From positions 1,216,804-1,280,803 of the forward strand of contig NW_022985443.1 of the NCBI RefSeq assembly GCF_010093595.1: 64,000 nt of DNA. Direction: 5' to 3'. The notes beneath the pieces were generated by a model. The model saw only the letters and a list, made by a program, of their open reading frames with translations. It was not told the DNA's origin and ran no database searches. The translations under genes were made by a program, and so were the position numbers. Source of the DNA: Mytilinidion resinicola. Its lineage: Eukaryota > Ascomycota > Dothideomycetes > Mytilinidiales > Mytilinidiaceae. Shown here piece by piece: positions 9,938 to 27,868 of this stretch (position 1 is the first letter of the stretch; every line of letters starts with the position of its first letter).

Positions 9938-12900
9938 GGTACGGGTGACGCCAAGGTACGATGCAGGAGAAAGCTATTTTGGCACATCCAATGACGGGAG
10001 TTGGTGTCTGAGATTCAGATGACCATGGATACCGCATAGAGGAAATGGGTTCAGCCGCTTCATGCGATCTCGGAAATGGTTTGAGTCTTCATCAGGGATC
10101 CTCCCATGACATCTGAGGCTCCGTCCGTCGAAGTCGTGATGCGCTCTGGGGCGAGTGTTCGGCCGCTGCGCTGGATTCCACTTCGTGGCACAATAAAGCT
10201 GTCCGTATCTCGGACGCTGGACATGCAGGAGGTGGCCTCCACGAGGTATGTCGTTGCAGAAAACCATGGTGTTCTACAGACAAGTTTCAAGCTCCGCAGT
10301 GGGTGGGGGCTGACTTTCCACAACCCTTGTAGGTGCAGAATCCTCGGCGAGGTAGAGGCACCTGGGATTAGCCGCTGACTAACTATACCACTATTGGCTT
10401 AGTTACTGCCACATGCTATCCTTTTAGACAGGAGGCCTGAAAGTTTGATGGGATATGTGTGCTTTTCACTGAGCCTCTTGGAGCTGAATTGATTGTGAAG
10501 TTGTGGAACTTCCAGCAATGCTGATAGGAAGCGCGATTATTGAGTTCTCACGTGGCATTAATTTATTTCCTCCACAGCAGGCGTGGGAAATGATTTCGTA
10601 GCTTGCAACTGGAAATCTATCTTTTGAGTATCACATGGTCATCGAATCAGCATGCTAATTTCTCATAATCAACTTCCCATACTAATAATCACGTGATTCT
10701 CCCACCAATCCATTTCTTACCCACCTCACCCGGTAGCTTTTCCAACGCGCTCCGAACTTCTCCGGGTTCTCTACTAGTATCAAGTTTGGGATCGAAGTCT
10801 TGGTAAGTCTGATTCTGACGGAGTACGTATTCCTAGCCAGCTAGCCTACGGAGTGTGGTACGGCTAGCGTCGGCTACCTTAATATAGAACACGGTTCCTA
10901 TATTTAGCCCTCACAGTTCTACGGTACGGCTACGTAAGCCTCCACACACAGGAGTATATATACGGCGTACGTAGCCTAGATAGATGCTCATCCAATACAT
11001 CACTTACCTCGTTCAATGCATTGTTTCACCTCCATCCTCAGATTCGACAATGATACGGGACACTGTTACGACTCTTTTATCATAATACGCGTCTACGAAG
11101 AAGATTGAGCCATATCCGGCGGCTTCACGATACCTAATCTACTTGCAACTATATGCCTTAATCCATAGCTCCTCAGACATAGGATTTGGCATTACTAGCT
11201 GTGCTACAGGCTCCAGGTCCGCCAGGGGCGTCCTTCGGCCCTTTATAAAGCTAAAAGTCAATTGCGCACTGTAGGTCTCAGGACCTTTCCTGTTTCATAT
11301 TTGTACCTAGTCGCTTTCAATCTTTATCCTATGAGGGTTTATAGTCAGAGATTACTTGTGCCTTTGCGATCAAATCTAGCACACCTACCACTCAGGAAAC
11401 CACCGCCCCGATGACTACCTCAACCCCACTCTATACTCCTTCTTTCTAACACCTGTATCCTGCTTCCCGTGACCGATAAGCTTGTGGCGAGAGATAGGGC
11501 GGCGGCTCTGAGGGAGGGGAAGTTTTCAACGCGGAATATGAAGAAGACGAGTTGAGACTATGAGGAGGCGGCCGACGCGAAGAGAGATACTAGCAGCGGC
11601 GAGGGAGCAGACCACTGGCGTGGAGGGCTGGCTGATCAGCTTAATGTGTCTCCTACAAGTCCATTGTTATTCTCAGTTGTCCTCCTCAACATCAGCAGCG
11701 GCCTCATCATCAGCAGGCAGCAGCAGCGCATCCCTACCGTCCCGAGTCGTGCTCAGCTGCAGCCCCAGCTATGTCACGGCCTCGACGTCGTCCTCACCAA
11801 GCCATCGCGCCTCGAATCGACGCCTAGCCCTTAGCACTGTGGCACACAGTAGCGGCGATAACGTCCTCCCCCGTACACGCTGTCCGTCTTCCTTATGCCG
11901 CCGATAACGTCAACCAGACCCTCACCCTCACTCTCTTCAGTATTTCCGGCGCCTGCGTCTTGAAGCCTGCGTCCCTGATCCTCCCACTGGGTGTATTCGG
12001 CAAGCTATCGGAGGTTGTTGACGTCGACGGAGAGGCCGGCGATCTGCTGAAGAAGTCGACAAGATGGCGTCGACGAGAGAAAGCGAGCTAGGCTGACGAT
12101 GGCGTTCAGGTCTAGCTTTCTAGCCGTTGACGTGCTGCGAGAGAGGATAGAAGAGAGCGGATTGGCGGAGCAAACGGGAGGCGACGACAAGCGGTAAGTC
12201 ACAACAAGGGAGCGAGAAGAATGATTAAAGAAGAGTTGCATTGATCAGTGAGACTATTCAGAGGACCGGTTGAACCACAACAACCATAAAAGAGACCGAG
12301 AGAGACTGGCGCGACCATACTACCCTAGAACAGAAGGGAGGGGAAAACACTTACGGAAACCCATGAAGTCATTAAGAACGATTCTTAGCACTTCCATCTC
12401 TCCTCTCCCATCGGTCATTCCACACCTATCATGGGCGAACTCCCCGCGCTACCCGGATCTATAGCGTCTCATTTTTTCCCACCTCCCCGGGCGCGTACGG
12501 TCGGCCAGGTCATGCCTCAGTGCTTCACTTCCTCAGGTTGATTGAAGATCACGCAGCCGGGAACGGGTCGTCGAGAGTCCAGGAAGCTGAAAAGCTGGAG
12601 GGGAGTGTAGGGGAAGTGTAGGGGAAGTGGAAGGGATGGAGGGAAGAGGGGGTGGGGAATGAGTGGGTAGTTGACAGAAGTTGGGTATACAATAGGGCAG
12701 TATACGAGGCGGAATGAGGACGAGGTGAGTTAAAGAGAGAGCAAACATGGAGAGAGTCGGTTGTCGATTGTCGATGGTCGAAAGCTAAGACGAGAGTCGT
12801 TAGCTGAGATCACGATGGGAGCGAGACGACTTACTGGGGCAGAGGAAGTTGGTGCGATACACGGTGAGCTAGGTGAAGGTCAGCATTGATGATGCAGAGA

Positions 12901-13672: not shown

Positions 13673-14347
13673 CTACCTCTCCCACCCCTTCCCCAACTTC
13701 TCCACCGCCTCCTCCTCCGCCACCACATCCGCAAACAAACTCTCCAAATCAAACAGCGTCGCCTGCTGAATCTCCCGACTCCGATCCCCACTCCCCTCAT
13801 CCACCACCACACTCCTAAACCCCCACCCCACCGCATCCACCGCCGTCGCCCGCACACACCCACTCGTGCTCACCCCACAAACCACCACCGTATCCACCCC
13901 CATGCCCTGCAGCACCCCCGCCAGATTCGTCCCAAAAAACGCACTCGGGTTCTTCTTCAGCACCACCACGTCGTCCGGTCCGGGCGTCAGGCCCTCGAGC
14001 CACGCGTCCATGCCCCGCGTGTCACCGTCTTGCCAGATGCTGATGCCCGGCGCTTTGACGGCTTGGATGGCGCCGTCGAGCATCTTGGGGTGGTTGTAGC
14101 GCACTTGGGCCCAGAGGACGGGGGTGGCGCCGGTGCGGGCGGCGGCGAGGAGGCGGCGCATGCAGGCGGGAGAGGTGGAGCCGGCAGGGTCGGCGAGGAG
14201 GGAGAGGGGGGAAGTCGGGGACCAGTAGGCGCTGCAGACGTCGATGAGGAGGAGGGCGGGGGAGGTGCCCCAGCCGAGGCGGGTGTGGAGGTTGGAGGCG
14301 AGGGAAGAGGCGTAGGAGGGGTGGGATGTTACGAGGGGGGCTGTCAT
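13673..14347 (-). CDS. Isochorismatase-fold cysteine hydrolase (N-carbamoylsarcosine/maleamate amidase-like), cluster copy 1
   Basis: Intronless, 224 residues. The isochorismatase-like fold is clear: ALLLIDVCSAYW supplies Asp36, VVVLKKNPSAFFGT supplies a Lys at 131/132, and VCGVSTSGCVRAT supplies the nucleophile Cys164, making an intact Asp-Lys-Cys triad. The long GxRxAxxL form and the TSGC motif match the N-carbamoylsarcosine amidohydrolase branch, which also contains maleamate amidases; it hydrolyses amide bonds of small substrates. There is no signal peptide, so a cytosolic location is expected. It is the left end of the gene cluster, and a perfect TGCCGGCCGGCA palindrome lies 106-117 bases upstream of its start. 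Codons are strongly G/C-ending compared with the second copy at 24777. Class assignment is firm; the substrate is inference. Confidence 0.92.
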   Translation of the reverse strand: MTAPLVTSHPSYASSLASNLHTRLGWGTSPALLLIDVCSAYWSPTSPLSLLADPAGSTSPACMRRLLAAARTGATPVLWAQVRYNHPKMLDGAIQAVKAPGISIWQDGDTRGMDAWLEGLTPGPDDVVVLKKNPSAFFGTNLAGVLQGMGVDTVVVCGVSTSGCVRATAVDAVGWGFRSVVVDEGSGDRSREIQQATLFDLESLFADVVAEEEAVEKLGKGWER

Positions 14348-14452
14348 GGTGGTGGCTAGGATGTAGTAGGCTAGGAGAAGGGAATAGATGAGAGGTGTGT
14401 ATGTTGCAGGTAGGTGAGGTGTGTTGGGGCCTACTGTTTATGCATGAACAGA

Positions 14453-14464
14453 TGCCGGCCGGCA
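14453..14464. promoter_or_regulatory. Cluster motif upstream of hydrolase copy 1
   Basis: Perfect 12-base palindrome TGCCGGCCGGCA, followed 12 bases later by a further TGCCGG half-site at about 14476. It is of the CGG-inverted type that fungal Zn2Cys6 dimers bind, and it recurs upstream of four other cluster genes. Confidence 0.65.
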
Positions 14465-14642
14465 GTCTGGAATCTGTGCCGGAAGCTTTGAGAACGAGTC
14501 ACTAATATACAGAAAAGTCAGGCTTGAAGCTTGAGTGTAGCGAAGTCAGATTTATGGTTCGTCTATTACCGGGTATTATAGCTAAAATGTGCGCCCCATC
14601 AATCTCATCACTCTAACGACAGACGAGATTCCTCAGACGTGT

Positions 14643-16357
14643 TCAGAGCTTCCCCCTAATCTTGATCTCCAACATCCTCGTAGGGATGTAGATCATAGTT
14701 CCAAGGACGAGCGCAAACTCGAATCCCAAATCTCCTGCTTTCTCTGCTATTGGGCCCGTATACCAGGTCTGCGCCATACTCGGCACTACCAGCGCAAACG
14801 GGATGATCAGCGCGGCGAGGGCTGCAAGTCCACTCGGGAGTTCGCTGGCCACATTCCAGATCTTGTGGTCATACGCTGCCGGGTCGGCCTTGCGGAAAAT
14901 GAACCATTCGCTCAGCAAAATGCCCGTGAAGGCGGCAGCCCAGTAAGAGATGACGCCTAGGAAGCTTTCCAGGGACTCGAAGAAGGATTCTGCGGCTTTG
15001 ATGCCAACGCCGAGGTCAATGGCGGTGATGAGGATGACGAAAAGAACACGCGGCACTTTGACAAATTGCGGCCAGATGATCTGGAAGTTCAGCGAGACGG
15101 AGTAGAAGCCTGGCGAAATTTGTGCCACGACAGAGAGGGCGAGGAGGACAGCAACGAATTTGCCAAAGCCGCCTGCTGGGTGCAGCATGACTTCGAGAAC
15201 GCCGCCGACGGAGTCGCGGTCGTAGGCATCAGCCCAGGATGGGACATTCGGCACTGCACCACCGATTGCTGCACCGAGACACATGAGAAGAACGGACGGG
15301 AGGCAGATGCCCATCCAGCAGTACATGAAGATACGCCACCTATAGTGACACTGATTAGATATGGTCACTAGACAGTACGGACTGGAAATGCCTACTTCGG
15401 TGCCTTGGGGGAGAAGTAAACAGCAATATCTCCCACCGTCGAGCTATACGGAAGCATGTATCCAGCGATAAAGCTGATGAAAATCATGACAGTCTGTCCA
15501 CTTGGCGCAACTGGTGGTGCCTGCTCCTTCAACTTATTGCCGCCGCATCCAACAGCTACGAGAATGGCAATCAGAGCCGGTATCCACGCATATCGTTCAT
15601 ATTGATGGATGAAGTTGAAGCCGAAGAATGCAGGAACCATGGCACAGATACCAACAACAACGATTCCGACAACCTGGCTGATGGAATCGTTTGATACAGC
15701 TGCTAGAGTTTGTCCGGCAGTGACTAGGCAGATGATTTGGTAACCGCAGAGAGAGCACATGTTCAAGATGACGACGAGAATATTTGGGTACATGCTATGA
15801 TGCGTTAGAACTGGACTCGATTGAAGGAACACGATATAAAGCATGCGACTCACCCAAAGCTATATCGGGCCTGAATCATTTGACGCATGCCTGTACGCGG
15901 CGAGATAGTCTCAATGTACGCAGGTGGTATGCAAAGCAGGAAAGAGAAGAAGAAGATGAGAAGACTGCAGTCTCTCAAGCTTAGTCCAAAGGCCAACGTT
16001 CCGAGCATGCCGGTGACAAGGCTGATACAATGTTAGCTTCAACTCTAATGTGTATCGAGAGATGCAGACTTACGGTAGAGGACAAATCAGACTGGTGAAC
16101 CACACAGTGAAGATTTTGTTGTATTGCAAATCGGTTCGTTGGTCTTCGGGCACGGGCTGCACACCACGAAGCTCGACACCAGTTGCGGAGAGTAGTTTCC
16201 AAAGTTTAGCAAATATCCCTTTGCTCATAAGAGGTGACTCGGCTTCGATGATCTCTACGTCCCCGGAAATAGGAGTGGAGGTATCGACGACATGGCCCTT
16301 CTCAATGTCGGATCCGGCCTTTTCGTTAGGAGGTGTATTTGTTGATGCTCGTTGCAT
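14643..16357 (-). CDS. Purine-cytosine permease family transporter (NCS1, Fcy2-like)
   Basis: Spliced complement model 16357-16074, 16021-15854, 15794-15396, 15339-14643 gives 515 residues. After a hydrophilic N-tail of about 75 residues come the NCS1 hallmarks TGMLGTLAFGLSLRDC, SPRTGMRQMIQARYSFG, an LNMCSLCGYQIIC segment, and about twelve hydrophobic helices. Fcy2-type proteins are plasma-membrane proton symporters for cytosine, adenine, guanine, hypoxanthine and sometimes pyridoxine-like or other N-heterocycles. The position between a hydrolase and a dioxygenase, with the shared upstream motif, suggests uptake of the pathway substrate. It could instead be an export or intracellular carrier. 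Family assignment is firm; the transported molecule is not known. Confidence 0.93.
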
Positions 16358-16982
16358 GGCTGCTTGATCGACCAGAAATGGGCTTGGTGGAAAAAGCGAA
16401 GGATGGTCCCGGTTACCAGTTCGTTGGGTGCAACGGGAGGAATGGCTTCTGCATGGCCTTATTTTATGTTCTCGCTAATAGGCCAACGCGGGAGCAATGG
16501 CAGTTGCCCGGGACCGCTATCAGATATGGGGTATCTTGTTTTGCCGGCCGCTGCTTGATATACATGATAGGACCCTGGGAATGTATCGGCAGTTCCACGC
16601 GTAGCACAGCGCTAAGAGATTCTCGACTAGCATAGGCCTAGTGGCTATCGAATTAGCGTAACGTTGCGAACACTATCATTTCTGTTATCGTGGTCACTCA
16701 CTCAGTCGTACGGGTTTGACTCGGAACACGATCTTAGGTGTCGTGAAACATGAAGGTGTTGCAACATAAGACACCCGGAAGTGCGATGCTAAGTCATTAT
16801 CGTAGTTCGGAGATATCCACGGCGAGCTCAGTACTTGCAATTCGGGGATAGTCGACCTTGTGTAACACGTGACTTTCCAGTCACTTGCCACGTTGATTAT
16901 TTTACGAAGCCTGGACGCTTCCAAAGTATATACTGTTGCGCTGTAGAGACGGCCGAAGAAACGCGACATTTTTCGTCGCCGA
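16358..16982. other. Upstream region of the permease and 3' flank of the dioxygenase
   Basis: 625 bases without a recognisable gene. It carries the cluster motif at 16542. Short open frames near 16333-16635 have no family resemblance. Confidence 0.6.
16542..16551. promoter_or_regulatory. Cluster motif upstream of the permease
   Basis: TGCCGGCCGC, about 185 bases upstream of the permease start at 16357. It shares nine bases with the palindrome at 14453. Confidence 0.6.
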
Positions 16983-18678
16983 CTACGCTGGCCGAGTCCC
17001 AAGAGCAGGTAGACCGCTCTCCGCGAGCGCTTTGTTCACTTCGGCAAGATTTTCCAAAAAGTGGCCCTTCATGTTGTCCCAGAACTCCGGCCGTTGGATC
17101 TTGATCGTGTTGTGCCTTTCCATGGCGAACTTTGTCACGGAAAAATGAGAGCTGAGGTGTAGCATAAAACCAATGCTGCCAACCCCCACTAGCATGGGCT
17201 CCAAAGGCGTGGTGGTGGCCTTCACCCACGCCTCATACGACTCCCCATGTGGCATGTAGCTATGCTCCAGAGTGAGTCCGCCTGCTTCTTGTTCTCGAGC
17301 GCTACCGCCGTATTTTCCGCAAATGAGTCCACCAATTTCGGTGGCCATGTTACGATGATAGTACTAGCGTATCGGTGATCAGCAATAATTGACTCATAGG
17401 CGTGAGATATACGTACAGGTGGTCTGAATGTGTTTGTTGCTGTGGCCCACTTGGGAGTGAAAACAGCGAATTCGGTGAGTGATACTCCGTCCCATTTCGA
17501 CTTCGCCATCAGGACTGTGTAGATGGTGGGGTCAAGTTGCTCTTTCATCGATGACGACAGAGCAACGAACTTCTCGAGCAGGTACTTGTACGGAACATAG
17601 CTGAACTGGGGTGAGCGTTCTTCCACGTACAAGAAAGATATACATTACTTACTTTCCATGCCACGCCACCACATCAAATGGTGTCCATGCTTGGTCATAG
17701 CAGTAGAGCTCTCCGGTAAGCTTGTGAACTATAGTCCACTTCGATTCGTCAATATCAAAACTGGCGACTGGCATCTCGAAGTCTCTAGGATGCGCCAGAC
17801 CATTCGTTCCAACGGGTCCCATTTCCGGAAGCTCGTAGTGGCTACCGAATATCTCCTGGATATAACCATGCACTGCTCCATCGGGCAACAAAACTCGGAA
17901 GCGGATGCCAGCTTGCATGACAAAGATCTCTCCAGGCCGTACCATTACCCGGCCTAGTTCTGTTTGGACGTCTAGCCGGCCAACTTGTGGAATGATCAAC
18001 ATATCACCGTCGTTGTTGCAAAAAGCCTCGTTACCCATAGATGTATTGGCAGCATACATGTGAACCGCGACACCTTCCCTGATGGTGGGGTCACCGCGGC
18101 CACCCATAGTCTTGATTCCTTGGTAGAAGTTGATACTCTGGGAGGCTTCTGGGATGTCTAGTGGTCCCCAAGTATACGTGAGAGGAGTATAATGAACGTT
18201 TGGATTTTGCGGGGCGAAGCATGCTTCGAGGTCTGGTGACAGTGCCATGCGCTCGAGTGGTCGATGAGCGACTGAGGGTCGAACCCGGTACATCCAGACA
18301 TGCTGTAACGATTGCCGAGAAGAAATGAAAGAGGTGCCATTGAGCTGCTCAGAGTACAAATCGTACCGGCATTTCTGTGGTACGTTCTGACCACCTGATG
18401 GTAAAGCGCCAGGTCTACGAAAGTTGTTAACGTGAGTCTGATGCAATTGCTCGTCGAACTACTTACACAGCTTCTGTAGCAAACCGATTGCCAAAGCCAG
18501 TCTGGTATCGATACGGATCACCCGTCCTTGGCTCGGTGGTGAAGGACCCAGCTGCAGATGCTCCGAAAGTAGGGCTGAACGGTGTGGCTGCTGTCGTAGC
18601 TGGAGCTAGGTTGTCCAAGCCGCTAATATCTCCCATGCTTGCTAATTCAAAAGAAGTGGAAACTGGCTTCGAGAACAA
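16983..18678 (-). CDS. Homogentisate 1,2-dioxygenase family ring-cleavage enzyme
   Basis: Spliced complement model 18678-18467, 18414-17653, 17600-17417, 17363-16983 gives 512 residues. The homogentisate dioxygenase fold is recognisable throughout: YQTGFGNRFATEAVPGALP, QNVPQKCRYDLYSEQLNGTSF, the DGDMLIIPQ cupin, GTNGLAHPRDFEMP, FDVVAWHGNYVPYKY and TFRPPYYHRN. Putative iron ligands His389, Glu395 and His425 are all present, spaced 6 and 36 residues apart as in the human enzyme (335, 341, 371). Known members open homogentisate to maleylacetoacetate in tyrosine catabolism. Here the second-shell sequence is divergent (ATEIGGLICGKYGG rather than the usual SEFMGLI), and there is a roughly 55-residue N-terminal extension. 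No fumarylacetoacetase or maleylacetoacetate isomerase lies alongside. I infer a pathway-specific paralogue, possibly acting on another hydroquinone or hydroxylated heterocycle. A shorter start at Met15 is possible. Confidence 0.92.
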
Positions 18679-19051
18679 GGAAAAGATAAGAAGACGTTTC
18701 AGTGGCTACAATATTGCAGCAGCCGCGTATATAGCCCATATGGAGCCCCATTTCGCCACCAGACGGTAATGTAGGCCGCGGTCAATGTTTGCGGGGACTT
18801 GTGCCGGAGCCTGCAGTCTGCCGGCCGGTGATACTGTGAGGCCAGCCCCAGATCGACATGCACATAAGTCCCGGCACAGCCTGTCGCACTTAGTGGTGAG
18901 AGTCAGGGAAACGCGATAAGGGTCCAGGCCATGGATCAAACAAGAGTGGGTTGCAGTTCAGATAAGACCGATGGTGCCGGGGCTGGATAAAACCATCGGC
19001 CGGCCAGCAGCCGGCAGTTGGAATTGTGGAAGCATTGTGGAAGCATTGGAC
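18679..19051. promoter_or_regulatory. Divergent promoter between dioxygenase and zinc-cluster regulator, with two cluster motifs
   Basis: 373 bases separate the two outward-reading starts. TGCCGGCCGGTG lies at 18819-18830, about 141-152 bases before the dioxygenase start. TCGGCCGGCCA lies at 18996-19006, only 46 bases before the regulator start. Extra TGCCGG half-sites occur near 18802 and 18974. The arrangement suggests autoregulation plus control of the structural genes. Confidence 0.6.
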
Positions 19052-21220
19052 ATGATGAATGAATCTCGTTTGGAGGAGAATCGTGCCAGGCTGAGCAGGG
19101 CCAGTGTTGCATGTCGAAGGTGTGTGAATTGAAGCTTGAGCGACGTTGGACGGAAAAAGCTCGGGCCGGCTGACTTGTTCTCGTCCAAAAAGATGCCGGA
19201 GACTTCGAGCCAAATGCCATCATGACAATGGAGTGCCTCCGTGTACTGGATGCATCAAGGCAGGCCCTCAGGAAAGAGACTCATGGTAGGTGCTATATTC
19301 CGGAGTGTTTCACGATGTAAAGGTCCTAGTGTTGATTCTAATCAATTCTCTAGCTCTTTTCCACCACGAGGTCACAGCCATCGCGATCGAGAGTTTCGAG
19401 CCCCTCGACGGAAGTCAAAGACAGATGCCCCTTTTGTACCACAACCACGTCCTCAACCGGGGTCGAGACGTGCCACAACCCCCATCATCCTCGAAACCCC
19501 ACAGACGCTATCTCCAATCGGCTCGAATACTACCAGTAGTCCAGAAGCTCATCCTTCTTGGGAGCTATTACCTCCTCATGATGAAGTCGTTGAGGGATGC
19601 AAGATATTCTGGACATCTTTGATCCAAGTTGGCTTCATTCCGAAGCGCCTGTTTCTCGAGCGTCTGAGTAAAGACCGCTCGTCGATCAGCCTGTTCTTCA
19701 TACTCAGCATCTTGAGCGTGTCTGCCAGATTTACGCCTAGTCTTATCAGACGATATGGAGACTGTTCAAGTGCTGGTGACTACTTCATCCGTCATGCGTC
19801 GCGGTTGGTGGGCCAGGTCCTTTATGAGCCTACTCTGGAGAACATCCAAGCGCTATTCCTCCTTGCACTAGCGCAGTACGCTCAGGGAGATCGCACGCGT
19901 AGCTCTATGAACATGGGCATTGCTGTCAGGATGGCTGGCATTTTGCGTCTGCACCGAGAAGAGACCTACATTCTCCCAGAGCACGTTTCTACGGATGAAG
20001 CGGTGCAATCAGAGATGGCGAGAAGGACCTTCTGGGTCTTGGAAACTCAGGACCATCTGCACTCCGGGCACGCTTCACCCTTGCCTTTTGCACCCTCTGA
20101 CATTACCGCTTTACTTCCGTCGGACGAGAGTGACTTCGCATTCGGAAGAGTCCCCAAGCAACGTGCTGCGCTCGCTGGTACCAAGGCCGCAGAACTAAAC
20201 CCACAACTGACCTCTCTTCCTTCACGCTCGTTGTTTGCGACTCTATTAGAAGCTCATAGTCACTGGGGCAATGTAGCAAGAAAAGCGTGTCGGACTGATC
20301 TTTCCAACGACTCGGTAAAGCCTTGGGACAGCGGTAGCGACTTTGCTCGCATCATCCAGACTCTAAATGATTGGGAGGCCGGTCTACCGGACAAGCATTG
20401 CTGGTCAGTCTGGAACCTCCGAGGCTATTGCGCTGAAGAGCTACATTTGGCGTATATGTCAGTTGTCATGGCCACCAGGTTGAACCATGTAGTAATTCGA
20501 AGGATCTACCTGGATGACATTCTTGCTGCTGCTTCTGGGACCTCACAGGACGATGCTCCACCAACTTTCTGGCGCAACGTCGCAGAAGACATGTTCACTA
20601 ACGTGTGCGCTCTCCATGAGCGTATCGGTACATTCATATCTCTCCGTTCGGAAAACGAAGGGTTCCCGGCTATGCTGTTATTTTCTCTTTACGTGTGTGG
20701 AACTCTCGCCATCCAGCTCCTGAAGTGGCCTCATCTGGCCCCTCGGCATGCCCCAAAAGCAGAATCAATCGCAAGTGGCTCCCTGGAGATTTTGGGCGAT
20801 CTGCAGCATATATGGCCACTAGCATCACGATGGACAAATTCTCTCCGCAGATCAGCGGCGTGTCTCCAGAGCAGAGAAGGTATTGATCTACCAACCTTTC
20901 TACCGTCCACGCAGTTCGAAGATCGGATGGCGAGCTCTGAGGATTTACAGCTTCCAGGCATGCACGTGGCCAACTCACCAAGAGATATCGACACAGCCAA
21001 TCTTGAAGTGCTCAGCATGGCTGTGTCATCTCGGTCGCAGATGGAAATGATGGGTAGCAACGAAGACATGATAGATCCGTCTCTCACCTTGACACCCACT
21101 ATTCGTCCCCTTGGTGATGCTTTCGAGACAGAGCTCGCAGAATTTCTACTCGGAAGAACACATATGGGAATGATGAACGATTGGGTGTCTGAACGTTTCA
21201 GCGTCACGCAGAGCTTTTGA
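19052..21220 (+). CDS. Zn2Cys6 transcription factor with fungal-specific regulatory domain, likely cluster activator
   Basis: Spliced model 19052-19119, 19193-19285, 19354-21220 gives 675 residues. The zinc cluster is split over three exons and appears only after splicing: Cys21, Cys24, Cys31, Cys40, Cys43, Cys54, with CRRCRRLRAKC and PPCTGC cores. Starting at the first ATG of the long third-exon frame (19241) would lose the DNA-binding domain. A basic linker (RRKSK) precedes the middle homology region (about residues 120-400: FWTSLIQVGFIPKRLF, LFLLALAQYAQGDRTRSSMNMGIAVRMAGILRLHRE, RRTFWVLE), typical of PF04082. Such proteins bind CGG-containing repeats as dimers. The CGG palindrome in the shared promoter and before the structural genes makes this the best candidate regulator. 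The spacing between Cys43 and Cys54 (10 residues) is slightly long. Confidence 0.9.
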
Positions 21221-21798
21221 TGAAGTATCCCCCAGAGTATCGACCCACACAGCGGTCAACCAGAAGCCCAGCACGCATACTGGCCATTCCTACATACCTA
21301 GCATAGATCTACCTTTAATAGAAGACTCTGGCGTTAGCACACCTATAGTGCTCTGCGTAATTACCTTCTTCCAAGTACCTCTTCGGTGGCATCCTTGAAA
21401 TGACCGTCCATTTTTGGAGAAATTCTATGTTGATCTGAATTGTTGAGAGGACGAAGATCAAGTTGGAGTTGGGAATGGACTCATAAGCCCTAACCGCTTT
21501 CAGATTAGCGAATGGCTATGGATTTGACAAAGGGTCACAACGAACCTCAGCACTCCACCTTACACCGACGCTTTTCTTCTTCCCCAACACTCGAGATCCA
21601 AACCGCTTGTAACTACTCAATATCAAAGCCGTGACGTCTGTTAGTCGACGCTGATTAGGGGCACCACTACTGATTTCGGTCCATCGGGATGGCCAGCCTT
21701 GTTGTCATGTAATAGAACTCGGACGCGGAGACATCAGTCATCAGTTGCTACACCATCCCCAGTTACACCCCCAAGAACGGCTCTCGCCAGAGTGAGCT
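21221..21798. other. Intergenic region between the two regulators
   Basis: 578 bases; no coding region and no TGCCGGCCG copy. Contains the 3' flank of the first regulator and the presumed promoter of the second. Confidence 0.6.
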
Positions 21799-23040
21799 AT
21801 GCCCGCATCTCCAACAACGTTCACAGTACCGCCCACTGGCCCTGGAGCCCCGAAGCTGCGATCATCTTGCGATAGCTGTGGAACAGCCAAGGTCAAATGC
21901 GATCGTAATCAGCCCGAATGTGGGCGCTGTGCTACTCTTGGCCTGGCTTGTGTATATGGGCTATCCCGCCATTTTGGCAAACCACCAAGGAAGAGGCCTG
22001 CCATAGTTCTTGATGAAGGGGCCGCCAGATGCAAGAAGCGTACGACACATATCGACGAGAGCCGCAATCATCACATCGCCTCGGACTATACACAGCCCCA
22101 AAGTTTCAACCAGTCTGGGCAACTTGAATTCTCTAATTCAACGCCTGACATGCATTCATCTACTTCCGGCCTCGTGAATCCGTTACGCATGGACGAGCAG
22201 GATCAATTTAGCTCAGCTATTTTCCCCTCACTGTTCCTTGATGAATGGCCTCAGATGGATGGTTTCGGGTTTGGTCTAGAGATCCCCTCCGTCCCAAAGA
22301 GTTCTGCCACAGAGGGCCGACTATCAGCTTCCGCATTGGAGCCCGTTAACTCCATGAGGATGGACACCGCCTCTCACAAGTCCCATAGCTGCCCACGGGA
22401 GTCGTACGAGGTTTTTCGGGATTTGATCTGCCCGGCACCTGATCTTCACGTACCCGAAGCACATTCAGATCCCGTTTCAGCACAACTAGATCAGGTACTC
22501 TGCTTCACCAGAAACGCCATCGATCGTCTTACCCAAATTCTAAGATGTCCATGCGCCAGCTCCGGGCACCGGGTCATGGTGCACGCCTCTACTATTTCCC
22601 GAATACTGATGTGGTACCAACAGGCTGCGGGGTGGACCTGCAGACCGTCTCAGCCGTTAGGATTGGTCAACTCGCCAACGTCCAGCAGTGTGTCTCCATA
22701 TTCGCCCCCTTCATATGATACAGCAGCCGACACAGATACAGTAAGCACACCCACACTGGCTCAATGTACTGGATTTGTCGTCGAGCATGTGCCTGTTTCA
22801 ATGGGGACGTTCAGCATTGAAGATCAGAACATGCAGGCTGCTATCAGGACCCAGTTGGTCTTAAGTGAGCTTAAGAAGATGGCTAATTTGATTGACCTCT
22901 TCACATCGCAAGACTCCTGCGAATCCTCCGCCAGTGGCATTGCTGGCTTGCATGCACATCTGGGAGCATGGCTCCGGAGTGAGCATTCGCGGACTGTCAG
23001 AATTTTGACGACGAGGCTCAGTGCTTTGAACGATATTTAG
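21799..23040 (+). CDS. AflR-like Zn2Cys6 regulator
   Basis: Intronless, 413 residues. The zinc cluster at 24-51 is canonical: Cys24, Cys27, Cys34, Cys41, Cys44, Cys51, followed by YGLSRHFGKPPRKRP, the post-cluster form seen in aflatoxin-regulator-like proteins. The C-terminal half matches the AflR domain (PF08493): LTQILRCPCASSGHRVMVHASTISRILMWYQQAA and a late SELKKMANLIDLF helix. AflR-type proteins usually control secondary-metabolite clusters. A second, structurally different regulator beside the first suggests that this is a dedicated pathway. No cluster motif lies in its own upstream region, so it may sit above the other regulator or act on another site. Confidence 0.92.
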   Translation: MPASPTTFTVPPTGPGAPKLRSSCDSCGTAKVKCDRNQPECGRCATLGLACVYGLSRHFGKPPRKRPAIVLDEGAARCKKRTTHIDESRNHHIASDYTQPQSFNQSGQLEFSNSTPDMHSSTSGLVNPLRMDEQDQFSSAIFPSLFLDEWPQMDGFGFGLEIPSVPKSSATEGRLSASALEPVNSMRMDTASHKSHSCPRESYEVFRDLICPAPDLHVPEAHSDPVSAQLDQVLCFTRNAIDRLTQILRCPCASSGHRVMVHASTISRILMWYQQAAGWTCRPSQPLGLVNSPTSSSVSPYSPPSYDTAADTDTVSTPTLAQCTGFVVEHVPVSMGTFSIEDQNMQAAIRTQLVLSELKKMANLIDLFTSQDSCESSASGIAGLHAHLGAWLRSEHSRTVRILTTRLSALNDI

Positions 23041-23108
23041 ATTTGCTTTAACCTAAATAGAATGTTCCGGCTTTGGAGCCAATATTTCAGTTATTCCTTA
23101 ATTTTCGG

Positions 23109-23133
23109 CCAATCAAATGTGAAATTTGATTGG
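23109..23133. promoter_or_regulatory. Perfect inverted repeat holding two opposed CCAAT boxes
   Basis: CCAATCAAAT, five-base loop GTGAA, then ATTTGATTGG: ten-base perfect arms, about 70 bases after the AflR-like stop and 250 bases before the NmrA-like start. CCAAT boxes bind the HAP/CBF complex. The hairpin could equally serve as a 3' processing or terminator-like element. Confidence 0.5.
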
Positions 23134-23386
23134 CGAATGAACACGCATTGGCTTCGGTTTTCGGGAACCGATAGAGAAACCCCATTGGCTGGGTTGCTGG
23201 TATTCAGGACAAGCGACCCTAGATACATCAAAACAACAGGTGAGTTTCTTTTTGATTAAGCTTGGGTCCTGAGCTAGATTATCTATATAATGCGGAGATC
23301 GCATTCTCATTTCTTAGTGGGAAATAGAGCTCGTCGGCACACATTCCTCTCCTCATCTACCTTTGATACCTTACCACCCAAGCACA

Positions 23387-24606
23387 ATGGTTCATATCGC
23401 AATAGCTGGTGGCTCGGGTGGTATGCAACTCTGTATTCCAAATGAAGTAGCAACTAGAGCTAATTTTCCCTTCTAGAAGTTGCTAGTGAGGTCATCGACG
23501 CTTTGGTAGCCGCGAAGAAGCATGAGATTACTATCCTCAGTAGGAGAGTGAGTATTGACCCTGGCCCTTCGTCTTTCCGCGGTTATGTTACTAATGTGCG
23601 CAGGAGGCGCCTACTGGAGACAATAGAGAGGGATTGATATGGCGAACTGTAAACTACGACGATAAGAGCGAGCTCGCCGAAGCGCTACAGGGAATCCACA
23701 CCGTCCTGTCTTTCATCCAGCTCATGACAGATCCGAATCAACAAGCCCAGAAGAACCTGATCGATGCTGCTATACTTGCCGACGTCAAGCGATTTGCTCC
23801 AAGCGAATATGGAAGGTGTGTTATCGTGTCGCCCTGGCGCTAGGTCAGTATTTAACGTCTGCAAAGTTCGACCACAGTGGATATGCCTTGGTGGGCTAGA
23901 AAAGACGCGACCCAAGAATATCTGAAACAAGTCAACGAGAGTGGAAAGGTAAAGACCAATTCCACTTGCTCTGACTGTCGCATTTGTGCTAACTCCGCAG
24001 CTCAGACTATCGAGTATACTTTGTTCCAACCAGGCATGTTTCTCGACTATCTGGCATTTCCATACAAGACAGCCAAACACCTTACTCCGCTAAACACGAT
24101 GATTGATTTTGAGAACCGGCGTGCAGTTGTCGTTGAAGGCCACGACGCCATCATGACTTTCACTACAGTCCAAGATCTTGCTGCAGTTGTGGCGAGAGCA
24201 GTTGACTACGATGGAAAGTGGCCCGTGATTGGTGGTATCAGCGGCAACAGAATTCCGGTCTCACGAATTCTCGAGATTGGGGAGAGAGTTCGAGGTTTGT
24301 CTCACCTCCCCCATATCCTCGAGCTGCTCTCATAATATCACAGGTCATCCATTTGTTATTGAGAAGGTCAAACTGGAAGATCTTGAGCGTGGAAATCTCA
24401 AGACTTCGTGGTCGCTCGAAACGAGCCATCCAAGCGTTTCTGGAGAACAGGCCACGAGTTTATTGAAAGCTGTTCTCATTGGAATTTTGTTAAGCGGCGC
24501 AAAGGGTGCTTGGGATGTGTCGGATGAATACAATCAGCTTTTGCCAGATTACAAGTTCACCCAGATCGACGACTTCCTCGCCGAAGTCTGGAAGGGAAAG
24601 CCGTAG
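23387..24606 (+). CDS. NmrA-like / isoflavone-reductase-like NAD(P)-binding protein
   Basis: Spliced model 23387-23420, 23477-23547, 23604-23815, 23867-23948, 24006-24294, 24344-24606 gives 316 residues. The Rossmann start MVHIAIAGGSGEVASEVIDAL holds the glycine-rich loop. RFAPSEYG, DMPWWARK, YTLFQPGMFLDYLAFPYKTAKH and TFTTVQDLAAVVARAVDY are hallmarks of the NmrA/isoflavone-reductase family of atypical short-chain dehydrogenases. Members either reduce aromatic or phenylpropanoid substrates or act as redox sensors. The exon 4 start was taken at 23867 (after GCAAAG) because the closer CAG gives an immediate stop. The fourth intron is 57 bases and open, so its retention would not shift the frame. 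Upstream there is a CCAAT inverted repeat but no TGCCGGCCG. A role as the pathway's reductase is inferred from position. Confidence 0.85.
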
Positions 24607-24639
24607 TCTTAAATGTTTCTTGGGCGAATTCGCTCACAG

Positions 24640-24651
24640 TGCCGGCCGGCG
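24640..24651. promoter_or_regulatory. Cluster motif upstream of hydrolase copy 2
   Basis: TGCCGGCCGGCG, 126-137 bases upstream of the start at 24777; eleven of twelve bases match the palindrome before hydrolase copy 1. Confidence 0.65.
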
Positions 24652-24776
24652 ATGTTGCCGTGGTGGCTCCACATATCACCAACGTCACACATACTTTCTC
24701 ATGTACAACCCCATCAACAACATCGGAAATCTCATATATTTGTCGTAGAGCAAGCATATAAAGTCACACCTTAGCC

Positions 24777-25498
24777 ATGGCTGACATCTCCCCCGCCGAT
24801 TATCCTGAGTACACCAAGAACATTTCCAACAAATCTCAGCCTCCCCTCGGCTTTGGAACCCGTCCAGCCCTGATCATTGTCGATGCTCAAAAAGCATACT
24901 GGAATCCCGATTCGCCTCTCTATTTCAGTCACTATGAGAATGCCGCCGCTGCACCCGCCTACATCAAGACCCTCGTATCGTCCGCTCGATCTGGAAAGTG
25001 TCCCGTAATCTGGTCGCGAATACAATATGAAAACGCGTCACTAAGGGACGCAGGGTTATGGGCGAAGAAGAGGAACCACCTAGACTGTTTCCTGTCTAGT
25101 GATTCGAGGGGTCTAGGAGACTGGATTGAAGGGCTTGGTCCCGAAGGAGACGATGTTTTTATCACGAAGAAGTTCGCGAGCGCGTTCTTCGGCACAACAC
25201 TTGCGACACAATTACAGATGCTCAATGTAGATACTCTGGTGATTTGTGGTGCTCATACCAGCGGGTCCATTAGACAGACAACACTGGATGCCATGCAAAG
25301 CGGATTTAGACCTATCGTAAGCTATTACTCTATCTTCTTAACTCTTCACGAAAGCTGATCCACAATATGAAGGTTGTAGCAGCGGCTTGTGCTGATCGGA
25401 CTCGAGAGACTCACTTCGCGAATCTGTTCGATATTCGCGCAAAGATGGGGGATGTGATTGCTGTCGAAGAAGCTTGCAAACAGCTGGAGAAAGGCTAG
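24777..25498 (+). CDS. Isochorismatase-fold hydrolase with Ser in place of the catalytic Cys, cluster copy 2
   Basis: Spliced model 24777-25316, 25373-25498 gives 221 residues. It is collinear with the copy at 13673: Asp36 in LIIVDAQKAYW, Lys131/132 in FITKKFASAFFGT, and ICGAHTSGSIRQT at the nucleophile turn. The residue aligned with Cys164 of copy 1 is Ser (codon tcc, one base from tgc). Amidases of this family need the Cys. True isochorismatases work without it, as a vinyl-ether hydrolysis needs only acid catalysis. Copy 2 could therefore be an isochorismatase-like ether hydrolase, a weak or altered amidase, or a structural partner of copy 1. The rest of the fold looks intact, with no other decay. 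Its promoter carries the cluster motif. Confidence 0.9.
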
Positions 25499-25774
25499 TA
25501 ACGAGCCCTCAATCAGGCGATGTTCGAGAATGTAACCTTCATTCTCACATAATCTTGACTCAATTTGCATTTGCTCGACATGATGACTGTGCTACAAGCC
25601 CGCCCGTGGAACCCTTGTCTCGCGCAATCTTTGAGCGAACACACGAATCCACGAACTCGCCAACAATTGGATATACATCTTCTTGAGGTCATCCACCCCC
25701 GCTGCCCCACCCTCGTACAGCAGCTTGATGCACCATCGGAGATAGGCGCCACCAACCTGATCCGGCGCCCAAAG

Positions 25775-25785
25775 TGCCGGCCGGG
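25775..25785. promoter_or_regulatory. Cluster motif upstream of the P450
   Basis: TGCCGGCCGGG, 115-125 bases upstream of the P450 start; it is the right-most copy of the motif in the cluster. Confidence 0.62.
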
Positions 25786-25899
25786 AGATACCCAGCAGTC
25801 ACTCACATCTATCATCATGCAACGAATGCCTAGAAATACTAGCCAAGTACTATCATATCGTCGTAGCGACGAATTTATTCCACCAAATTTGTCTCTGAA

Positions 25900-27868
25900 A
25901 TGGTGTTCCCTCTAAACGTGCTGTCTTTATCAGCAGCTCTGCTGCTAGTCGGCGTCTGCTACAAACTTTACACCAAGCTCTTCGCGGGCAAGTACCCGTT
26001 GCCGCCGGGACCGAAGGCGCAGTTCCTGGTGGGACACTATGGCATCGTCCCAGCTGAAGGACCGCAGTTTCAGTATGCCAAATGGTCGAAGGAGTTGAGT
26101 GAGTACATCTTTAGTCTATGTCACGTGGTTTGCACGTGATGCACAGAGCAACGACTAGTAAACAACATATTATGAGCTTGTGAGGTAGTTTAGGAGCTGA
26201 CAACGAAGACAGATACCGACATCCTGTACTTCGAGTCATTCGGCACGAAATGGATCGTTCTTAACAGCCTCCAAGCCTCTATTGACCTCCTAGATAAAAG
26301 GGGGAACAACTATAGTGATAGACCGCGCTTTATCATGAATGACCTGTCCGTCTTCTCTCTCTCTCTCATACCTCAAATCAATACAGTCCCCTTTCTACTT
26401 CCAATAAAGCCTCATCCCCACACCCAACATCCAACCCCCTAGCTAACCTCCCCATAGCATGGGCTGGGCACCAACCCTCACATGGCTCCGCTGGTCTCCC
26501 AAAATGCTGCAACACCGCAAGCTCCTGCAACCCCCCTTCTCCAAATCCAAAGTCTCCCAATACTGCCCCCTCCAGCGGCGCGAAGCCATCAAAGCCGCCC
26601 AATCCATCCTCCGCACCAACGCCGACCCTATGGCGTGGAACAACGCCATCCGCCGCTTCGCCGTAGCCGTGGTGATAAACATCGGCTTCGGCGTCGAGAT
26701 CGAAGACGACAAGAGCCCCTTCATCAAGCTCGCAGACGACGCCGCGATGGCGATTAGCAACGCAGGCGCGCCGGCGAGTAGCATCGTCGACCGATTCCCC
26801 GCGAGTACGCTGCCCCTATCCCGTTTACACTCCCCCCCCCCCCCCCCTCCTCTCCACAATACACCCCCTAACCCTCCACCTAGCCCGCTTCCTCCCCTCC
26901 TCCCTCCCCTTCATGGAGCGCAAGCGCTACGCCGAAACGTGGCGCTTCGCCATCCAAAACATCACCAACATCCCCTTCGCCGCCACGCAGTCCGCCATGG
27001 CCGCGCAGCGCCCTCGGCACTGCTTCGCCGCAACCCGCCTCGCCATCCACGCCGCCAACGCCGAGAAGGGCATCCCGAACGACTTCTCCCTCGACGACAT
27101 CAAAGGCGCCGCCGCCGCCATCTACATCGCCGGCAACGACACCACCCAGACCACCATCGCGCTGTTCGTGCTGTATTTGATGCAGCACCCGCCCGTGCAC
27201 CGCAAGGCCACCGCCGAGATCGATGGCGTGGTGGGTAAGGACCGCCTGCCGGAGTTTAGCGATGTCCCGAATTTGCCGTATCTTAATCTCGTGCTGCACG
27301 AGTGTTATCGCATGAACCCGCTCAGCCCGCTGGGGATCCCGCACGCGAGCGTCGCTGAGGACGTGTACAGAGGCATGCGGATCCCGGCGGGTACGATTGT
27401 GTACCAGAACGTGTGGGCGATGACGCACGACGCGGCGGTGTATTCGCGGGCGTTTGAGTTCTGGCCGGAGCGGTATCTGAGTAAGGAAGAGGGGGGAGCG
27501 GGGGAGCCGTTCCCGGTGGGGAATTTTGGGTTTGGGAGACGGGTGTGCATTGGACGGAACCTGGCGGAGAATAGCATGTTTATTATGTTTGCGGTGCTGT
27601 TGGCGACGGTGGAGTTTGGGTGGCCGGTGGGGCTGGGTGGGGGGGAGGAGCAGTATGAGGTGGAGTGGAGTTTTAAGGGGCAGGCGTGAGTTTCTATTTT
27701 TTTTTTTTTTTTTTCTTGTTTGATGGATGAGGGGATGATGAGAGGGGAATGGAGAGAGGAAGTGAAGGCTGACGTTGACGCAGACACCCGTTACCTTTCA
27801 AGTGCAGGATGGCGCCGAGGAGCGAGAAGGCGGAGGTTTTGTTGATGAATGCGGATTTATCGTTCTAG
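25900..27868 (+). CDS. Cytochrome P450 monooxygenase (OrdA-like)
   Basis: Spliced model 25900-26098, 26213-26345, 26458-26804, 26884-27685, 27784-27868 gives 521 residues. An N-terminal membrane anchor (LNVLSLSAALLLVGVCYKLY) and hinge PLPPGPK are followed by WSPKMLQHRKLLQPPF, the I-helix AGNDTTQT, the ExxR motif ECYR, and the haem loop FGFGRRVCIG. P450s insert one oxygen atom using electrons from an ER reductase. The sequence resembles the O-methylsterigmatocystin-oxidoreductase-like group common in fungal pathways. Intron 2 needs a weak donor (GTCCGT at 26346), and intron 3 carries a 16-base C run. The last intron carries an 18-base T run. The 28-residue final exon, including HPLPFKCRM, is well formed. 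It is the right end of the motif-linked cluster, and hydroxylating the pathway substrate is the likely role. Confidence 0.88.

Follow-up and report, generated by a model that had tools for sequence, protein, structure and literature searches.

The fungal L-tyrosine degradation (TD) cluster, hppD-hmgX-hmgA-fahA-maiA-hmgR, is, in the passages that define it, a regulated catabolic cluster with a ring cleaver of the homogentisate dioxygenase family (Greene et al. 2014, PMC3914699), and in these respects it resembles an eight-gene locus of the dothideomycete Mytilinidion resinicola described here. However, the eight genes include an amidase, a cytochrome P450 and a permease instead of a 4-HPPD or a fumarylacetoacetase, while their ring cleaver, termed HGD2, is only 39% identical to the canonical copy of its own genome and has both second-shell histidines replaced. 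Membership of the TD cluster was therefore rejected, as the 4-HPPD and fumarylacetoacetase families are missing among the eight genes (Pfam); for fumarylacetoacetase, this agrees with the first-pass annotation, which had noted that the usual homogentisate partners are absent. The gentisate catabolism (GC) cluster, as outlined in the same source, likewise serves aromatic catabolism, its ring cleaver being a dioxygenase and its regulator a C6 transcription factor, but its gentisate dioxygenase and salicylate hydroxylase (PMC3914699) represent families that are both missing among the eight genes (Pfam), and this assignment was also rejected. The Fusarium FDB1 benzoxazolinone cluster shares an NmrA-like protein, a Zn2Cys6 regulator and an amidase function with our locus. 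It was rejected because it has PF01425 amidases, a metallo-beta-lactamase, a dienelactone hydrolase and a salicylate hydroxylase of its own, and because the words homogentisate, isochorismatase, dioxygenase and P450 occur nowhere in the main text of the paper describing it (PMC4726666). In the relevant part of PMC2409186, the homogentisate dioxygenase and isochorismatase families are named apart, with no cluster. Consistent with the earlier statement that no described fungal cluster with this set is known, we found no description of a fungal dioxygenase-isochorismatase cluster among the papers listed from the open-licence literature, a scope outside which most subscription papers fall.

The bacterial nic pathway resembles the logic proposed below in that an isochorismatase-fold amidase with an Asp-Lys-Cys triad (NicF) acts after a ring-opening dioxygenase, but its ring opener is of another family, and nic-type hydroxylases are missing among the eight genes. 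Similarly, the fungal nicotinate hxn clusters represent co-regulated catabolism of an N-heterocycle, but their set of molybdenum hydroxylases and a cyclic imidase is missing among the eight genes (Pfam). As set out in the following, the locus probably serves to open the ring of a nitrogen-containing aromatic compound, and its genes appear to be jointly controlled.

Gene models were built by hand from the DNA, and the resulting proteins were scanned against Pfam; all coordinates refer to the window, the 64-kb stretch of DNA that was analyzed. The reverse strand carries iso1 (13673..14347; PF00857; 224 aa, one exon), an isochorismatase-fold amidase resembling N-carbamoylsarcosine and maleamate amidases; a cytosine/purine-type permease (14643..16357; PF02133; 515 aa; four exons, 16074-16357, 15854-16021, 15396-15794 and 14643-15339); and the homogentisate-dioxygenase-family ring cleaver HGD2 (16983..18636; PF20510 and PF04209; 498 aa; four exons, 18467-18636, 17653-18414, 17417-17600 and 16983-17363). 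Divergent from HGD2, the forward strand carries TF1 (19052..21220; PF04082; 675 aa; three exons, 19052-19119, 19193-19285 and 19354-21220), a Zn2Cys6 and fungal_trans regulator whose zinc cluster was read by eye, Pfam having no match there. It is followed by TF2, an AflR-type Zn2Cys6 regulator (21799..23040; PF00172 and PF08493; 413 aa, one exon); an NmrA-like NAD(P)-binding oxidoreductase (23387..24606; PF05368; 316 aa, six exons); a second isochorismatase-fold protein, iso2 (24777..25498; PF00857; 221 aa; two exons, 24777-25316 and 25373-25498); and the cytochrome P450 (25900..27868; PF00067; 521 aa; five exons, 25900-26098, 26213-26345, 26458-26804, 26884-27685 and 27784-27868), whose model has a weak donor at the second intron. 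The HGD2 and iso2 models are 100% identical to NCBI proteins of M. resinicola. By eye, the intergenic gaps contain no extra gene, the list of open reading frames offering only overlapping or short frames there; the models and their Pfam families thus agree with the earlier view that the eight genes lie together with none unrelated between them.

HGD2 is covered over its full length by HgmA_N (341.5 bits) and HgmA_C (113.1 bits), and a search of solved structures matched it to the human enzyme 1ey2 with 376 bits. The iron triad is retained as His375, Glu381 and His411, equivalent to His335, Glu341 and His371 in human numbering, the alignment offset having been checked. However, the second-shell residues His292 and His365 are replaced by Gln332 and Glu405; a passage of PMC4019311 suggests that these histidines help in deprotonating the substrate hydroxyls. 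The predicted structure of HGD2 (mean pLDDT 68.7, below 50 around the active site) was not used as a basis for active-site claims.

In a tree of 88 rows, from which 38 metagenome rows and 75 of the 80 bacterial loci were left out, HGD2 falls in a fungal clade of 74 rows (SH-aLRT 100). This clade contains all 27 named rows that have a linked isochorismatase or P450, while the canonical copy and seven basidiomycete rows, none of them linked, fall outside it. Within the clade the iron ligands are conserved (His335 in 74/74, Glu341 in 73/74, His371 in 74/74), but His292 is replaced in every row (Gln in 73, Leu in one), as is His365 (by Glu, Asp or Gln). Both second-shell histidines are present in 26/26 canonical comparators, tabulated together with the clade in a table that left out 56 of the 80 bacterial loci, and also in 80/80 bacterial loci (best 80 of 243) in a separate count that took all 80. 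The 38 metagenome rows, tabulated apart, have Gln (32) or His (6) at residue 292. Since the group comprising the third M. resinicola copy and the basidiomycete rows retains His292 yet has Glu at 365 in 8/8, substitution of residue 365 alone is no marker of the HGD2 clade. A recent bacterial import of HGD2 was rejected, as the best bacterial locus is 43% identical and all 80 (best 80 of 243) keep both histidines. Because both second-shell histidines are lost, we infer that HGD2 would act on a substrate other than homogentisate; the label 'homogentisate 1,2-dioxygenase' carried by many listed proteins of this clade is probably wrong.

The M. resinicola genome has three mutually distinct loci of the homogentisate dioxygenase family, which rules out that HGD2 is its only homogentisate dioxygenase, a possibility raised against the cluster reading at the outset. 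The canonical copy, on contig C5, adjoins a fumarylacetoacetase frame; the third copy is on contig C10, where, by eye, it adjoins a maleylacetate-reductase-like Fe-ADH frame. HGD2 is closer to this third copy (44% identity) than to the canonical one (39%). 4-HPPD-like exons were found elsewhere in the genome, the fumarylacetoacetase family is absent among the eight genes (Pfam), and contig C7 has no fumarylacetoacetase match among the matches listed. Thus, of the separate hmgA-fahA-maiA locus that had been suggested as a check, the dioxygenase-fumarylacetoacetase part was found, but maiA had no match above the cut-off in the genome when exons were searched singly.

Among solved structures, the best relative of iso1 is the N-carbamoylsarcosine amidohydrolase 26st, followed by 3ot4/3uao, presumably NicF, the maleamate amidase of Bordetella. 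iso1 has the Asp, Lys and nucleophilic Cys of isochorismatase-fold maleamate and N-carbamoylsarcosine amidases (Asp36-Lys131-Cys164, all present). Among the isochorismatase profile matches listed, Asp and Lys are each present in 120/120 and Cys in 114/120, and some iso relatives bear the source-given name 'Maleamate amidohydrolase'. In iso2, Ser takes the place of the nucleophilic Cys; six other listed proteins are nearer to iso2 than to iso1, and five of these lack the Cys as well (Ser in three, Ala in one, Glu in one), while P0199 keeps it. Isochorismatases act as hydrolases without this Cys. The catabolic order first envisaged, with a maleamate-type amidase, gains support from iso1, by its triad and by 3ot4/3uao as its second-best relative, but not from iso2, which lacks the nucleophilic Cys.

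The cluster P450 matches, with 45% identity over 91% of its length, a Thozetella protein that its source lists as CYP621A2 and that is apparently encoded on the same contig as an HGD2 of that organism; as P450 families are delimited by more than 40% identity to a named member, the cluster P450 is a candidate for CYP621 if that label holds. In the sections that treat them, CYP621A genes of Fusarium are reported to neighbor genes resembling those of riboflavin biosynthesis and to belong to no predicted cluster, and the function of CYP621 is stated as unknown (PMC12940212); CYP621 is elsewhere placed under xenobiotic metabolism (passages in PMC5985579 and PMC10785452). Several relatives of the P450 carry the name O-methylsterigmatocystin oxidoreductase. 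Relatives with 53–60% identity to it come from many fungi, which to judge by their names are mostly Sordariales, and have no HGD2 on the same contig among the matches listed. The solved-structure search gave no relative for the permease and only a weak match for the NmrA-like protein (ytfG, E 3e-5).

The locus had been described as a motif-linked eight-gene cluster. An TGCCGGCCG-type motif is indeed found upstream of six of the eight genes (iso1, permease, HGD2, TF1, iso2 and P450), but not in the promoters of the NmrA-like gene and the AflR-like TF2. Upstream of iso1, the motif occurs as TGCCGGCCGGCA (14453..14464) at a distance of about 106 bp; the permease has TGCCGGCCGC (16542..16551) at about 185 bp, HGD2 has TGCCGGCCGG (18819..18828) in its gap to TF1 at about 183 bp, iso2 has TGCCGGCCGGC (24640..24650) at about 127 bp, and the P450 again has TGCCGGCCGG (25775..25784) at about 116 bp, all upstream. 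A related site with a weaker match, TCGGCCGGCC (18996..19005), lies about 47 bp upstream of TF1. Thus, the motif stands some 106–185 bp ahead of five structural genes and also beside TF1. On both strands of the window, TGCCGGCCG occurs at six places versus 0.6 expected: five are promoter places of the eight-gene set (14453, 16542, 18819, 24640 and 25775), and the sixth (6379) lies outside it, inside another reading frame. All four places of TGCCGGCCGG in the window (0.15 expected) are within the eight-gene set. As TGCCGGCCGG has 90 strand-matches in the 47.1 Mb of the genome, versus 76 for the reversed pattern, it is not rare as such. However, of its 87 distinct places, four fall within 11.3 kb at one locus only, the eight-gene set (Poisson scan, about 1e-4, computed with 86 places). 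Places with two sites elsewhere in the genome are, by eye, two frames on contig C2, one alpha/beta-hydrolase-like and the other MFS-like, and a repeated sequence on contig C13.

Linkage in other fungi was compared for the dioxygenase, isochorismatase and P450 families, with at least 120 matches for each, and was inferred from equal-sized contigs and organism names in the match lists; P0011, which has no contig, was left out of the count. Among the matches listed, 30 contigs carry relatives of at least two of the three (HGD and iso on 18, HGD and P450 on 13, iso and P450 on five, all three on three). For these three families, the scattering of orthologues that would have argued against a cluster is thus not what was found. 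Where gene numbers are positional, linked genes are 1–5 apart on 8/8 contigs. On chromosome-sized contigs, some of the co-location will be due to chance, and one linked pair, on a 7,280-base contig, was paired by equal size alone. In the basidiomycete Plicaturopsis, the genes share a 4.1-Mb contig, but their numbers (96456, 70110 and 48632), presumably of the non-positional JGI type, are uninformative on nearness. Among the matches listed, 47 of the 74 HGD2-clade named rows have no linked partner, which, the listings being partial, is no evidence that it is absent from the genome. Judged by these contigs, HGD2, the Cys-type amidase (iso1) and the P450 are the core that recurs in other fungi.

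We consider the chances about even that the genes of the locus are co-regulated and together break down a nitrogen-containing aromatic, around a core of HGD2, iso1 and P450 that recurs in other fungi. Judging from its family, the permease would import a small aromatic or heteroaromatic substrate; a heteroaromatic one is our inference. The P450 would hydroxylate it to a para-hydroxylated arene, and HGD2, whose iron ligands are in place, would open the ring at its Fe(II) centre. As the ring or ring-attached nitrogen would end as an amide, the product would be of the maleamate kind, and the Cys nucleophile of iso1, within its observed triad, would hydrolyze this amide to release ammonia. iso2 may be a non-catalytic partner subunit or a Cys-independent hydrolase like the isochorismatases. 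TF1, whose gene diverges from HGD2 and shares with it a promoter containing the motif, is the best candidate for the activator that binds TGCCGGCCGG.

Other readings of the locus appear less probable. HGD2 might belong to a duplicated homogentisate- or gentisate-type pathway and cleave a non-nitrogenous para-diphenol (homogentisate, gentisate or a substituted hydroquinone), while the isochorismatases would take an incidental substrate, an ester or an enol ether. Its family is certain (Pfam E 4e-102; 376 bits to 1ey2), its iron ligands are intact, and the Fe-ADH frame by the C10 copy suggests that paralogues serve in other aromatic contexts. We nevertheless regard this as unlikely, as both second-shell histidines are lost clade-wide, the canonical copy and a fumarylacetoacetase sit separately, no fumarylacetoacetase family is found among the eight genes (Pfam), and a Cys-type amidase is linked repeatedly. 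A 2,5-dihydroxypyridine (nicotinate-type) pathway convergent with bacterial nic, in which HGD2 yields N-formylmaleamate and the two isochorismatase-fold proteins are deformylase and maleamate amidase, seems decidedly doubtful: 26st is closer to iso1 than 3ot4, iso2 lacks the Cys, the eight genes include no molybdenum hydroxylase or flavin monooxygenase (Pfam), and the bacterial 2,5-dihydroxypyridine dioxygenase differs in fold from homogentisate dioxygenase. In its favor are the presumed NicF (3ot4/3uao) as second-best solved relative of iso1, the name 'Maleamate amidohydrolase' of several iso relatives, and a purine/cytosine-type permease that suits a small N-heterocycle.

The AflR-type regulator and the P450 relatives named O-methylsterigmatocystin oxidoreductase would fit a role in secondary metabolism, with the P450, the dioxygenase and the isochorismatases as a small set of tailoring enzymes for an aromatic natural product. 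However, polyketide synthases, peptide synthetases and terpene cyclases are all missing among the eight genes (Pfam), and the permease is from a nutrient-uptake family; we give this explanation little credence. That the genes are chance neighbors without joint function, as the missing motif at the NmrA-like and AflR-like genes might suggest, is highly improbable given the motif density and the recurrent linkage in other fungi.

Returning to the catabolic cluster for a nitrogen-containing aromatic, the repeated co-occurrence of dioxygenase, amidase and P450 is indicative of a catabolic route in fungi, and supplies context for a P450 group whose function is, in the part of PMC12940212 that treats it, stated as unknown. 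More tentatively, fungi may have a widespread, undescribed oxygenolytic route in which HGD2, with its Gln/Glu second shell, would open the ring of an amino- or aza-arene to give a maleamate-type amide directly and a dedicated Cys amidase would deaminate this amide, in some cases with a Cys-less isochorismatase partner. Such a route would be a eukaryotic counterpart of the bacterial dihydroxypyridine-maleamate route, with unrelated ring-opening chemistry.

Gene models built by hand with GT...AG introns and then scanned with Pfam agreed with the families that the first-pass annotation had assigned to all eight genes at window positions 13673–27868: two isochorismatase-fold proteins (iso1 and iso2), a permease, a homogentisate-dioxygenase-family protein (HGD2), two transcription factors (TF1 and the AflR-like TF2), an NmrA-like protein and a P450. 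The borders drawn for the set also appear approximately right, since the flanking frames are, by eye, of unrelated look: ankyrin/NACHT-type on the left and one resembling a secreted peptidase on the right. Further out, 14 kb from the cluster, a 993-aa frame (41722–44703, minus strand) has, by eye, the look of a two-part p-aminobenzoate/chorismate-utilising synthase and is probably a housekeeping gene.

One of the region's proteins matches, at 100% identity, a protein listed under Mytilinidion resinicola, a member of the Dothideomycetes. The contig bearing the window (C7) belongs to a genome of 47.1 Mb in 44 contigs, in which HgmA_C family matches fall at three loci (the window, C5 and C10); the window dioxygenase is thus not the sole genomic copy, a point on which the cluster proposal had been made to depend. 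It shares 39% identity with the C5 copy, 44% with the C10 copy and 60–73% with its nearest named relatives, which belong to scattered fungi among the matches listed. We rejected the window gene as hmgA because the C5 copy has a fumarylacetoacetase reading frame ~0.5 kb away and retains the canonical second-shell residues. The separate hmgA-fahA-maiA locus that had been sought was therefore recovered in part, as an hmgA-type gene beside fumarylacetoacetase on C5, while a search of the genome exon by exon gave no maiA match above the cut-off. This absence is in keeping with PMC3914699, where Baudoinia is the only Dothideomycete of the set with hmgA and maiA orthologues or xenologues; the C5 copy adds hmgA to that distribution. 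Exons resembling 4-HPPD were found on C7. The C10 copy represents a third type and, among the matches listed, is most similar to basidiomycete proteins; with its neighbours (G000:C10:389500-396500, locus L006), by eye iron-ADH/maleylacetate-reductase-like, zinc-ADH-like and MFS-like frames, it perhaps forms another aromatic cluster.

In a tree of 88 rows (quick search, LG+G4), 74 named fungal rows among the matches listed, including the window copy, formed one group with an SH-aLRT of 100, the HGD2 clade. Seven basidiomycete rows were adjacent to it, the C10 copy lay just beyond, and the C5 copy was further out, as were five bacterial rows; the tree program flagged the C5 branch and one bacterial branch as long. 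The closest kin of the window copy (support 99 and 100) were Talaromyces marneffei, of the Eurotiomycetes, and Pleurostoma richardsiae, of the Sordariomycetes. As these belong to other classes, the kinship fits either fungus-to-fungus transfer or an old paralogy with many losses.

In the alignment HGD2 retains the iron ligands. At the position of human His292, the clade has Gln in 73 of 74 named rows and Leu in one; at His365, Glu (64), Gln (6) or Asp (4); and at Glu401, His in 67 of the 74. These positions are His, His and Glu in all 80 bacterial loci, and the C5 copy and the human enzyme read likewise. Glu at 365 also occurs in the C10/basidiomycete group (8/8), which retains His292, so that it is Gln at 292 that marks the HGD2 clade. 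His292 and His365 are suggested, as reported in PMC4019311, to assist deprotonation of substrate hydroxyls. The loss of both second-shell histidines while the iron ligands stay is best read, at the level of sequence, as pointing to a changed substrate for HGD2.

Linkage in other fungi was assessed by pairing the listed dioxygenase, isochorismatase and P450 matches by equal contig size and organism name. At least 30 contigs among the matches listed carry at least two of these families, a count that takes in the window's own contig and one 7,280-base contig paired by size alone; at least 18 combine dioxygenase with isochorismatase, at least 13 dioxygenase with P450, at least five isochorismatase with P450, and at least three (Pleurostoma, Saccharata and Plicaturopsis) all three. 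Gene numbers are present in both names for nine of the 30 contigs, and in eight of the nine they run along the genome and lie close together: Cadophora (11027/11031), Thyridium (4299/4302), Diatrype (6193/6196), Anthostomella (139570/139600, in steps of ten), Stachybotrys chlorohalonatus (9061/9064), T. marneffei (2489/2492), Cirrosporium (5186/5187) and Sporothrix curviconia (2900/2905). The JGI-type numbers on the 4.1-Mb contig of the basidiomycete Plicaturopsis (96456, 70110 and 48632) are far apart, and nearness is not readable from them; such numbers presumably do not follow position. Short linked contigs include two named ones below 26 kb (13,187 and 25,836) and one of 38,894, and in Pleurostoma relatives of the dioxygenase, iso1, iso2 and the P450 all lie on one 711-kb contig. 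The dioxygenase-isochorismatase pairing looks fungal, because none of the 80 bacterial dioxygenase loci, examined up to 6 kb on each side, has a clear isochorismatase nearby; one (L031) has a marginal match (E 2e-6). P450 relatives P0245–P0282, from many fungi, mostly Sordariales by name, and 53–60% identical for most rows, had no HGD2 on their contigs among the matches listed, and in these fungi the group may serve a second purpose.

The 9-mer TGCCGGCCG occurs at six places in the window, both strands counted, against 0.6 expected. Five are in promoters of the set (iso1, permease, the HGD2/TF1 intergenic region, iso2 and P450), about 106–185 bp from the structural-gene start codon; a weaker site lies ~47 bp upstream of TF1. 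The sixth, at 6379, is outside the set within another reading frame, in a minus-strand stretch (5322–9973) of ankyrin-repeat and NACHT-like frames resembling, by eye, fungal NLR-like proteins. Upstream of the NmrA-like and AflR-like genes no such site was found, so the earlier description of eight motif-linked genes holds for six, over which shared control would extend, and fails for these two. All four places of the 10-mer TGCCGGCCGG in the window are in the gene set (0.15 expected). Genome-wide it has 90 strand-matches against 37 and 39 on the two strands for the backward-read control, and is therefore only mildly enriched; nowhere else across the genome do four TGCCGGCCGG sites fall within 11 kb, and by a Poisson scan the probability of such a cluster anywhere in the genome is about 1e-4. 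Motif copies at G000:C13:16625 and 19811 (L089), 3.2 kb apart, lie in repeated sequence with near-identical surroundings, so that part of the genomic motif background is repeat-derived. Two TTCCGGCCGGCA sites 643 bp apart (G000:C2:210642-211294, L088), near frames that by eye are alpha/beta-hydrolase-like and MFS-like, are possibly a second target of the regulator acting on the cluster motif.

Iso1, with an Asp-Lys-Cys triad, and iso2, in which Ser replaces the nucleophilic Cys, are 40% identical, and their alignment was the query for relatives. Among the 120 matches listed, Asp and Lys are kept in all and Cys in 114. Seven of the listed proteins, iso2 included, are nearer to iso2 than to iso1, and six of them lack the Cys (Ser in four, Ala in one, Glu in one); the exception, P0199, scores nearly equally to both. 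This fungal Cys-less group comprises iso2 (window 24777–25498), P0139, P0187, P0211, P0225 and P0236; in Pleurostoma, a Cys-less protein lies on the contig of the other cluster relatives. Judged from its residues, iso2, which shares the common promoter motif, could be either a partner subunit or an enzyme of Cys-free chemistry.

Known members of the homogentisate-dioxygenase family convert the ring carbon bearing the iron-bound oxygen into a carboxylate. Were nitrogen to replace that oxygen, or to lie within the ring, the product would be a maleamate-kind amide instead, and an amidase would thus belong in the pathway. The genes, the motif, the triads and the same-contig linkage of the three families are observed. 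In the general scheme, to which we give an even chance, a substrate would be imported, para-hydroxylated by the P450 and ring-opened by HGD2, and the resulting amide would be hydrolysed by iso1; we infer every one of these reactions. Candidate substrates would be 2-amino-5-hydroxy-arenes (e.g., 5-hydroxyanthranilate), hydroxyarene carboxamides and 2,5-dihydroxypyridine, although a pathway for the last, with its ring nitrogen, seems improbable to us. Our searches of an open-licence library turned up no description of such a cluster, and PMC12940212 states the function of the CYP621 P450s as unknown. Catabolic clusters around the homogentisate-dioxygenase family are already known, and the present gene combination is a variant of these, the novelty of which would grow if the amide chemistry were shown.
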